Shown: piece by piece, positions 8,667 through 10,596 of the stretch
Layout: every line of letters starts with the position of its first letter
Numbering within the stretch: the stretch's first letter is position 1
Program-made: the position numbers and the translations under genes
From: Prosthecobacter sp.
Lineage (GTDB): Bacteria > Verrucomicrobiota > Verrucomicrobiia > Verrucomicrobiales > Verrucomicrobiaceae
DNA: 34,632 bases
Direction of reading: 5' to 3'
Assembly (NCBI RefSeq): GCF_029946185.1
Contig: NZ_JAQSEA010000135.1
Span: 1-34,632, forward strand
The notes under the pieces: generated by a model
Database searches by the model: none
Seen by the model: the letters and a program-made list of their open reading frames with translations, nothing else
Told to the model about the DNA's origin: nothing

Positions 8667-9413
8667 TCAGCCGCACACCGCGCAGTCGTTCCGTTTCGGC
8701 AGCCGAATCTTGCGAAACTGCATGCTGGCGAGATCCATCGACAGCAGCTCGCCGCAGAGCGTTTCGCCGATGCCGGTGATCAGCTTGATCACCTCCATCG
8801 CGCCGATGCAGGCCGCCGTGCCTGACACCGCACCAAACACCGGAAACTGCCGCGTCCAAGTGGGCGGCACTTCGGGCACGTAGCAGGCCAGACAGCCCGA
8901 TCTGCCGGGCACAAACGTAGTCACACTGGCTTCCAGGGTGTGCATGGCGCATTCCACCATCGGCTTGCCTGCACGCACAGCGGCGGCATTCAAAGCCAGC
9001 CGCTCCTGAAACAGCGGCGCTGCGTCCACCACGATGTCTGCCTGAGCCACCAAAGAGGCCGCATTGGCTACCGTCACGTTTTCCGCCACACCCACGATTT
9101 CGCAGCGGGGATTGAGTTCGTGCAGACGCCGTACGATGGAATCCATGCGCGGTTTGCCGATGTGATCGTAAGTTTGCAGCAACTGCCGGTTCAAATCCGG
9201 CCGCTGCAAATCGCCGCCGTGGGCTAGCACCAGTTTTCCCACGCCTGCCGCAGCGAGTTCCAGCGCCACCAGACCTCCCAGCCCGCCGACGCGGGAGATC
9301 AGCACCGAGGCCGCCTTGAGCTTCCGCTGGCCTTCCTCACCGACACCAGGCACCCACATCTGCCATTCATAAAGGGCACGTTCGGGGTCTGTCAGCAGAG
9401 GGAGTTCTGGCAT
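8667..9413 (-). CDS. HesA/MoeB/ThiF family adenylyltransferase
   Basis: A 248-residue E1-like enzyme that would adenylate the C-terminal glycine of a ubiquitin-like sulfur carrier (MoaD/ThiS type). It has the nucleotide-binding glycine-rich segment RVGGLGGLVALELAAAGVG (41-59), the LNRQ segment with the conserved arginine (75-78), the PMVECAMHTLEASVTTF block (151-167), and two Cys-X2-Cys pairs (C174/C177 and C244/C247) that bind structural zinc. Length and zinc sites fit MoeB/HesA more than ThiF with an extra cysteine arc. The Gly-rich motif begins RVGG where MoeB usually has GLGG, a small deviation. No carrier protein gene (moaD or thiS) is adjacent, so the pathway is undecided. The ATG at 9413 is chosen as the first start with family homology. 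Confidence 0.88.
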   Translation of the reverse strand: MPELPLLTDPERALYEWQMWVPGVGEEGQRKLKAASVLISRVGGLGGLVALELAAAGVGKLVLAHGGDLQRPDLNRQLLQTYDHIGKPRMDSIVRRLHELNPRCEIVGVAENVTVANAASLVAQADIVVDAAPLFQERLALNAAAVRAGKPMVECAMHTLEASVTTFVPGRSGCLACYVPEVPPTWTRQFPVFGAVSGTAACIGAMEVIKLITGIGETLCGELLSMDLASMQFRKIRLPKRNDCAVCG

Positions 9414-9534
9414 AGCGGCACGAGAGAACGAAGGCGGCTGGCAAGCTCGCGCAAAAATAATTCCATCATTTTTCAACACTTCTAACGGACCGCACTCTAA
9501 CACATTAACAGTTATGCGGGGTATCAGCCCTCCA

Positions 9535-9566
9535 TTGACTGAGTCTTGAGAGTGATTGGTTAGTTA
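9535..9566 (+). promoter_or_regulatory. Candidate sigma70-type promoter for a small RNA
   Basis: TTGACT (9535-9540) matches the -35 consensus in five of six positions. An AT-rich stretch TTAGTTATTAA (9560-9570) follows at roughly -10 distance, although no hexamer is an excellent match at 17-bp spacing. The site lies in a gene-free region upstream of a strong terminator on the same strand and would start a transcript near 9573. This is inference from position and pattern only. Confidence 0.4.
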
Positions 9567-9572
9567 TTAACT

Positions 9573-9658
9573 GAAACCCTGCTTCACCGCAGGACTAAGT
9601 TGAGGTTGATCAAACCAGAGGCCGGGCGGAATCGGGAGCCGCCCGGCCTCAATTTTTT
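9573..9658 (+). ncRNA. Candidate small RNA with two hairpins
   Basis: A plus-strand transcript starting downstream of the candidate promoter would be about 85 nt. It contains a small hairpin CCTGC-TTCACC-GCAGG (about 9578-9593), a linker with the palindrome TTGATCAA, and a strong intrinsic terminator. There is no plus-strand protein gene upstream within the gap (the flanking genes at 8667-9413 and 9757-10596 are both minus strand), so the terminator has no other obvious client. I do not see signatures of 6S RNA, SRP RNA, tmRNA or RNase P. An 11-codon frame (9514-9549, MRGISPPLTES) overlaps the promoter region and is more likely chance. The start site is inferred. Confidence 0.5.
9618..9658 (+). 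terminator. Intrinsic terminator (12-bp GC stem)
   Basis: GAGGCCGGGCGG (9618-9629) pairs perfectly with CCGCCCGGCCTC (9639-9650) around a 9-nt loop and is followed by AATTTTTT (9651-9658). The T-tract is on the plus strand, so it ends plus-strand transcription. On the minus strand the stem is followed by TGGTTTG, a poor tract. Confidence 0.9.
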
Positions 9659-9756
9659 CGGAGACTGAGCCGTTAAAGTCGCTGCGCGGTCAAGATGGCT
9701 ACGCCGTCAAGACTTGCCTTACCGACCATCATTGACCTGCTTGACCTCTTCCCCCC

Positions 9757-10596
9757 TCACTTCCCGGTCATCGTACACTTCACCCAGCTCGTCTCGCCGC
9801 ACCACTCGCGTGCTTTTTCCGCCAGTTCTGCCGCCTGAGCGGGGGATTCCGTGATGGCAAAAACGGTGCTGCCAGAGCCGGACATCAGGGCGGCGCGGAC
9901 TTCGCTTTGCTCCAGCAGCCAGGTTTTCAAGGTGGGCAGCAGCAGGTACTTCTCGAAGACCGGCCGCTCCAGATCGTTGGTCATGACACCCCATGGGCAG
10001 ATCTGCGGGGTGTAAAGGATGCCGGGGATTTCCTTGGAGTCGGCCCAGCGCTTATAGGCCCAAGGGGTCGGGATGGGGAAGGGCGGCTTGATCAGGACCA
10101 GCGGCAGTTGCCAGGGAAAATCCACCTCGCTGACCTCCTCGCCGCGCCCTGCGCCGTCGGCGGCGGGGCTGTCGAGAATGAAGCAGGGGATGTCCGAGCC
10201 GATCTGCGCGCCGAGTTCGATGAGCTGGGCCTGCGTGAGCGGTGAGCCTGCAAGTTCATTGGCCCCCATCAGCACCGTGGCCGCATTGCTGCTGCCGCCG
10301 CCGAGTCCTGCGCCTGCCGGAATTTTTTTCTCCAAATGAATGCGCCAGGAGGACTGCCTGCCGCTGAGGTTTTCAAAGGCACGCAGGGCGCGCATGGCCA
10401 GATTGGTTTCATCCAGCGGGACCGTGGGGTCGGAGCACGTCAGGTCCACCGCCGTCCCTGCGCCGCGGTGCTCAAGTTCCACGGTGTCGCCCAAGGCCAG
10501 CCGGCAGAGGCGGGTCTGCACTTCATGAAAACCATCCGGCCGTTTGCCGAGGATGCGCAGCCACAGATTGATTTTGGCGGGTGAATGAAAAGTCAT
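9757..10596 (-). CDS. ispE: 4-(cytidine 5'-diphospho)-2-C-methyl-D-erythritol kinase
   Basis: A 279-residue GHMP-superfamily kinase of the MEP isoprenoid pathway, phosphorylating the 2-hydroxyl of CDP-methylerythritol in the cytosol. The N-terminal SPAKINLWLRI block with catalytic lysine 8, the ATP-binding loop PAGAGLGGGSSNAA (93-106), the GSDIPCF segment with the catalytic aspartate (D135), and the C-terminal SGSGSTVFA loop (239-247) are all present in the right order. Length is normal. It starts 6 bp after the stop of the YfiH-family gene on the same strand, so the two are almost surely one transcript. No hairpin terminator is apparent downstream of its stop on the minus strand. Confidence 0.95.
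   Translation of the reverse strand: MTFHSPAKINLWLRILGKRPDGFHEVQTRLCRLALGDTVELEHRGAGTAVDLTCSDPTVPLDETNLAMRALRAFENLSGRQSSWRIHLEKKIPAGAGLGGGSSNAATVLMGANELAGSPLTQAQLIELGAQIGSDIPCFILDSPAADGAGRGEEVSEVDFPWQLPLVLIKPPFPIPTPWAYKRWADSKEIPGILYTPQICPWGVMTNDLERPVFEKYLLLPTLKTWLLEQSEVRAALMSGSGSTVFAITESPAQAAELAEKAREWCGETSWVKCTMTGK

Follow-up and report, generated by a model that had tools for sequence, protein, structure and literature searches.

The gap between two minus-strand genes of a Prosthecobacter contig (NZ_JAQSEA010000135.1, analysed here in full as a window of 34,632 nucleotides) very probably holds a real gene for a non-coding RNA of about 150 nt, which is conserved across one family of the Verrucomicrobiota and, in a diverged form, very probably extends to at least one more family within that family's order. 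Comparison with relatives delimits its borders and shows three covarying hairpins, two long motifs, a promoter-like block and independence from the neighbouring genes. The best explanation, which we hold to be fairly probable, is a stand-alone, trans-acting regulatory RNA that would work without Hfq and is perhaps under the control of an ECF-type sigma factor.

The gap was taken as positions 9414-9756, from the ATG of a moeB-like gene (set at 9413; the list of open reading frames instead extends the gene to a GTG at 9503) to the end of ispE at 9757. Both flanking genes lie on the minus strand, as the first-pass annotation had stated, and the gap is without a plus-strand open reading frame of at least 80 amino acids. 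The plus-strand intrinsic terminator that it described is likewise present at 9618-9658, with a 12-bp stem (9618-9629 paired with 9639-9650), the loop AATCGGGAG (9630-9638) and a run of six T residues (9653-9658). A pattern scan of a single genome does not set such a site clearly apart from chance (24 terminator-like sites against 17.7 ± 4.0 in shuffled sequences), and the fold of 9560-9660, which is stable compared with shuffles (z of -5.4), draws its stability mostly from the terminator stem. It is thus the comparison with relatives, and not the pattern scan alone, that decides in favour of a real RNA at this locus.

In the window, the RNA is placed at 9507-9658 on the plus strand, based on a covariance-model match at 9507-9661, an alignment of 30 sequences and its end at the T run; the transcript of about 85 nt suggested previously is therefore replaced by one of about 150 nt. 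Along the RNA, hairpin H1 (9509-9541), with outer CAGU/ACUG-type pairs and a variable inner stem, is followed by motif M1 (GTCTTGAGAGTGATTGG, 9543-9559), hairpin H2 (9578-9593, inner stem CCTGC/GCAGG), motif M2 (GTTGAGGTTGAT, 9599-9610) and the terminator. M1, that is GUCUUGAGAGUGAUUGG, is exact in 29 of the 30 aligned sequences, with GTCTTGAGAGTGATT invariant in all of them, and M2, GUUGAGGUUGAU, is exact in 27; in the terminator loop, AAUCGGGAG is found in 28 and TCGGGAGCC in all 30. A 4-nt insertion after M1 is peculiar to the window copy and absent from the other 29 sequences. One subgroup of the same genus (loci L037, L038, L124, L126 and L139) has retained H1 and M1 as well as the terminator stem but is without the standard H2 and M2, and a TTGCGT- or TTGCAT-like sequence replaces the T run past its stem. 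Similar stems with a UCGGGAG or AUGGGAG loop were also seen at other loci (L110, L112, L113, L114 and L115), two of them (L113 and L114) shortly past an apparent protein-gene stop, and the GGGAG-type loop may be a wider feature; a survey of terminator loops, whose loci were preselected for the RNA and which is no measure of the generality of the loop, returned nothing positive.

The helices of H1, H2 and the terminator covary among the aligned relatives. Of the 17 pairs that H2 and the terminator form together in the 30 sequences, 9 have compensatory changes; 98.4% of cells are paired, and the covariation score of 0.277 is reached by none of 500 shuffles and compares with 0.031-0.083 in slid controls; one of five measures, the number of further pair types, is not above the shuffles (115 of 500 reach it). 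H2 alone shows compensatory changes in 3 of 5 pairs (94.3% of cells paired) and the terminator alone in 6 of 12 (100%). In the case of H1, 15 segments of equal length (14 of them distinct) were chosen by eye from the same family, among them L026, L027, L028 and L067, which were kept although they are able to pair one base shifted. Here, 5 of 11 pairs carry compensatory changes, a number reached by 25 of 500 shuffles, and the covariation score is 0.287 against 0.180 in shuffled sequences (reached by 1 of 500) and 0.040-0.146 in slid controls, whereas further pair types are equalled by 36 of 500 shuffles. RNAalifold missed H1 on the 30-sequence alignment, because the H1 arms are misaligned between subgroups. 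With gaps counted as differences, the mean identity of the RNA block to 16 relatives is 88%, compared with 79% at the moeB start, 74% at the ispE end, 60% in the gap ahead of the promoter block, 67% in the promoter block itself and 18% past the terminator. Conservation of hairpins outside the terminator, on which the first-pass annotation had staked its proposal, is thus found in relatives, compensatory changes included. What stands of that proposal is a small RNA gene ending at the terminator, as borne out by conservation, covariation and shifting neighbourhoods, and what falls is its promoter and start: the TTGACT read as a -35 box (9535-9540) belongs to the 3' arm of H1, and only 2 of the 30 aligned sequences, the window counted, retain it.

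Transcription would instead be driven by a promoter-like block at 9472-9500 on the plus strand, consisting of a -35-like element, TTCAAC (9472-9477; TTGAAC in many relatives), and, at a conserved spacing, a -10-like element, TCTAA (9496-9500), with an 18-nt spacer in most relatives. The 5' end of the RNA is then probably near 9507, 7 nt past the -10-like element, at a conserved AACAGT. By an expression composed after inspecting the sequences, TTSAAC and, 18-19 nt further on, a -10-like element are found in 60 of 68 distinct sequences of the window's family (f1) and in 12 of 20 of the diverged form (family f2), and the spacer is 18 nt in 52 of these 60 and 10 of these 12. Of the 60 f1 sequences, 23 have TTGAAC and 37 have TTCAAC as their -35-like element, and all 12 from f2 have TTGAAC; the -10-like element is mostly ACTAA (29 of 60) or TCTAA in f1 and TCTGA, TCAGA, TCAAA, TCTTA or similar in f2. 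Eight f1 sequences are off the pattern: an additional A is present in L012, L013 and L065, L139 differs, and for L127, L140, L141 and L142 the scanned stretch stopped short of the -10 position. ECF/sigmaE-type promoters have a GAAC-type -35 element, a TCTRA-type -10 element and a fixed spacing, and the block (GAAC or CAAC, 18 nt, TCTRA-like) resembles them; on this resemblance a stress-type control is suggested. The exact promoter pattern occurs at three places in eight genomes, compared with five for a reversed control, and reveals no regulon there; the open frames were inspected at two of the three places. Upstream of 6S RNA in 20 genomes, taken as a control, one subgroup read by eye shows TTGAT(C/A), about 17 nt and a TA(C/G)CAT-like element, a weak control since the 6S start points are not mapped.

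Family f1 is the Verrucomicrobiaceae, according to the titles of public records. A BLASTN search with the gap against 56 genomes, the window's own included, matched 30 genomes (E of at most 1.7e-7), all of the same genus, and these gave the 30-sequence alignment and a covariance model, R1, which over 386 genomes of the order has strong matches in f1 only and values of 0.002-0.5 elsewhere. A second model, R2, was made from 32 f1 and three f2 sequences, and its own structure is poor (7 pairs), so that it is mostly a sequence model. With R2, the RNA is found in 64 of 68 f1 genomes, namely 45 of the 48 from the window's genus and 19 of the 20 from ten further genera, counts that were taken from the result rows, with unlisted misses assigned outside f1 from the row order. 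The f1 genomes without a match (G021, G133, G022 and G180) are draft assemblies between 52% and 93% complete. In the window's own genome, a search for extra copies gave, besides the locus, seven matches of 15-33 nt, all with E above 1. A 19-nt core is present in 36 stretches of named genome contigs and was not found in viral contigs; the titles of the records that bear it are Verrucomicrobia, Verrucomicrobiaceae, Verrucomicrobiales, Prosthecobacter, Verrucomicrobium and Brevifollis, with the exception of two metagenome-assembled genomes titled Akkermansia muciniphila. These two (L094 and L097) correspond to genomes G138 and G031 of the window's own genus and have an f1-type locus, and their titles look wrong.

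The diverged form belongs to f2, which we infer to be the Akkermansiaceae, with its small-genome genus g2 being Akkermansia. R2 matches 28 f2 genomes at E of at most 1e-4, including the three that had supplied model sequences (G251, G209 and G235), and finds no convincing copy in g2 genomes (best 0.007). An alignment of the f2 form covers 20 of the 22 f2 loci with the RNA, selected by means of an expression that lies within the M1 region and that the diverged second copies L167 and L169 escaped; these copies, bearing AUGUUAGGGUGAAC, are found in G209 and G251 alongside the common form. In f2, H1 has GAA..UUUUC-type arms and AAGGGUGAA stands where the M1 core is in f1; the whole of AUGUAAGGGUGAACAGCAGUUGUCAGC is present in 14 of the 20 sequences, the terminator-loop sequence GUGGGUGC in 15 and exact M2 in 5, with a relative of M2 in more. 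The f1 and f2 forms likely descend from a common ancestor, judging from the architecture, promoter-like block and M2 that they share. Exact M2 ahead of a terminator-like hairpin is also found in families f5 (L177) and f6 (L108 and L217), and these loci, sharing M2 and the terminator, probably count as copies. Over 387 genomes of the phylum, R2 gives no convincing copy outside the order, where nothing falls below 0.005: 15 of the 387 match at E of at most 0.01, and those beyond the order (G542, G654 and G655, at 0.005-0.01) look like chance. A pattern search of the phylum, which fails to pick up two carriers of the RNA, the window itself and G060, matches 10 of 387 genomes, with RNA copies in G018, G056, G057, G058 and G059; six other places (L147-L151 and L157) were rejected, as they lie inside open frames of 114-724 codons. 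Weak R1 or R2 matches at L109, L116 and L117 were not accepted on inspection by eye.

The genes beside the RNA change from one copy to the next, and this bears on the reading of the element as part of its neighbours, that is a 3' end, a leader or a bidirectional terminator. Matches to moeB and ispE flank the RNA at 16 of the 17 loci L009-L025 (L014 has no ispE match within 620 bases beyond the motif), L026-L030 keep ispE only, L031-L036 keep neither and L037-L038 have only a distant moeB relative. Judged by eye from their flanking frames, other copies adjoin rarA-like, PQQ-dehydrogenase-like and other genes, in three other f1 genera ispE again adjoins the RNA (L118, L133 and L136), and two f2 loci have the RNA beside a PpiD/SurA-like frame. 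Tandem copies, each with its own promoter-like block, are present in three Verrucomicrobium-type (g16) genomes (L130, 1501-1926; L131, 1501-1896; L138, 1501-2154) and in one f5 genome (L177). Persistence beside other genes and as tandem copies argues against a leader, a tail or a shared terminator, as do the RNA's own promoter-like block and a conservation that continues for about 110 nt on the upstream side of the terminator. A cis element of this kind is hence very unlikely, even with a hairpin that stands just past ispE in the window and several relatives and with 12 distinct hairpins with the loop CTCCCGATT that pass a loose test for a T-rich tail on the minus strand. The RNA thus has the properties of a stand-alone gene: it carries a promoter-like block and a terminator of its own and is independent of its neighbours, although the five copies noted above (L037, L038, L124, L126 and L139) are without the T run. 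A gene for a small protein, for which a GTG within M1 and an ATG in the f2 form might speak, is extremely improbable: by eye there is no shared frame, the GTG in the window meets a stop within four codons, the f2 ATG is directly followed by TAA, and it is the helices that covary instead.

The RNA matches no known family at the gathering score of Rfam 15 in the window. In a loose search of 9400-9800, the sole match is ctRNA_pGA1 (RF00236; E of 0.16 and 19.4 bits, the cut-off being 45), a chance-level likeness of G+C-rich terminator hairpins that was rejected. A 6S RNA (RF00013) was also rejected at this locus, with no match in 9400-9800 at E up to 10. Like 6S RNA, the new RNA is a conserved non-coding RNA with usually one locus per genome, but the window's genome has a separate 6S gene, on contig C163, and the fold is different, 6S RNA having the shape of a rod with a central bubble. 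These comparisons bear on the main rival, in which a core RNA acts through protein binding, either 6S-like or by sequestering a protein, and M1, M2 and the GGGAG loop are binding sites. It would account for long motifs, the terminator loop included, that hardly vary in f1, and the search for M2 targets described below gave no clear targets; set against it are the unlike shape, a hypothetical binding partner and a 6S match elsewhere in 30 of 34 genomes (E of at most 0.001; 15 over the Rfam cut-off), and we regard it as unlikely.

In the preferred model of a trans-acting regulatory RNA, transcription would start at the promoter-like block and stop at the intrinsic terminator, stress-type control would be exerted via the putative ECF/sigmaE-type promoter, and the RNA would act in trans, with M1 and M2, set between protective hairpins, as seeds pairing with mRNAs. 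Hfq (PF17209) was found in none of 11 genomes of the order, the window's own included, with controls positive in 5 of 14, so any pairing would work without Hfq. GcvB is a trans-acting, base-pairing small RNA, and RNAs of its type resemble the present one in being stand-alone genes with hairpins around conserved G/U-rich stretches and an intrinsic terminator; they differ from it in that here Hfq was not found in the 11 genomes, no clear M2 target was found in two genomes and Rfam gives no sequence relation. MicA and RybB are sigmaE-driven small RNAs, whose promoter consensus the GAAC-N18-TCTRA block resembles, but many f1 copies have CAAC, the same Hfq result applies, the phylum is another one and the sigma factor here is putative. 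A search of two genomes for sites complementary to M2 (14 nt, at most one mismatch) found 29, one of which is the RNA's own gene. Each of the other 28 is located in or at an open frame of at least 100 codons, and only one of them (L258, in the window's genome) is near a possible start codon, so that these two genomes show neither a start-codon cluster nor clear targets. The sites outnumber those of the pattern in reverse, with 20 versus 7 in the window's genome, G000, and 9 versus 4 in G018, an excess that can come from codon usage. A wider search for the M2 complement covered 34 genomes; among the exact matches listed, those at L210 and L213 have the look of coding sequence and the remaining ones are RNA copies or f5/f6 forms. 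Predicted openness in f1 is 0.42 for M1 (47 of 53 sequences) and 0.43 for M2 (44 of 53), the value of the whole RNA being 0.37, and in f2 it is 0.50 for M1 (18 of 20) against 0.31 for the whole RNA and 0.22 for M2 (9 of 20); such modest predicted values, low for M2 in f2, count against pairing. A broader version of the preferred model, in which an order-wide core RNA would control a large set of genes independently of Hfq, under a stress sigma factor of ECF type, and would use two near-frozen seeds and, as a third site of interaction, the conserved terminator loop, is quite unlikely in our view; that M2 is exact in so few of the f2 sequences counts against it.

A survey of 2017 reportedly described 224 candidate RNAs, and the present family is, judging from literature searches and Rfam alone, very probably unreported. 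Regulatory RNAs of Verrucomicrobiota seem to be little studied, as searches for the literature on Prosthecobacter sRNAs and Verrucomicrobium spinosum small RNAs suggest. If the order-wide reading were true, the RNA would be the first such global riboregulator of the Verrucomicrobiota; as a conserved family with mapped parts, it offers a handle on riboregulation in bacteria in which Hfq was not found.
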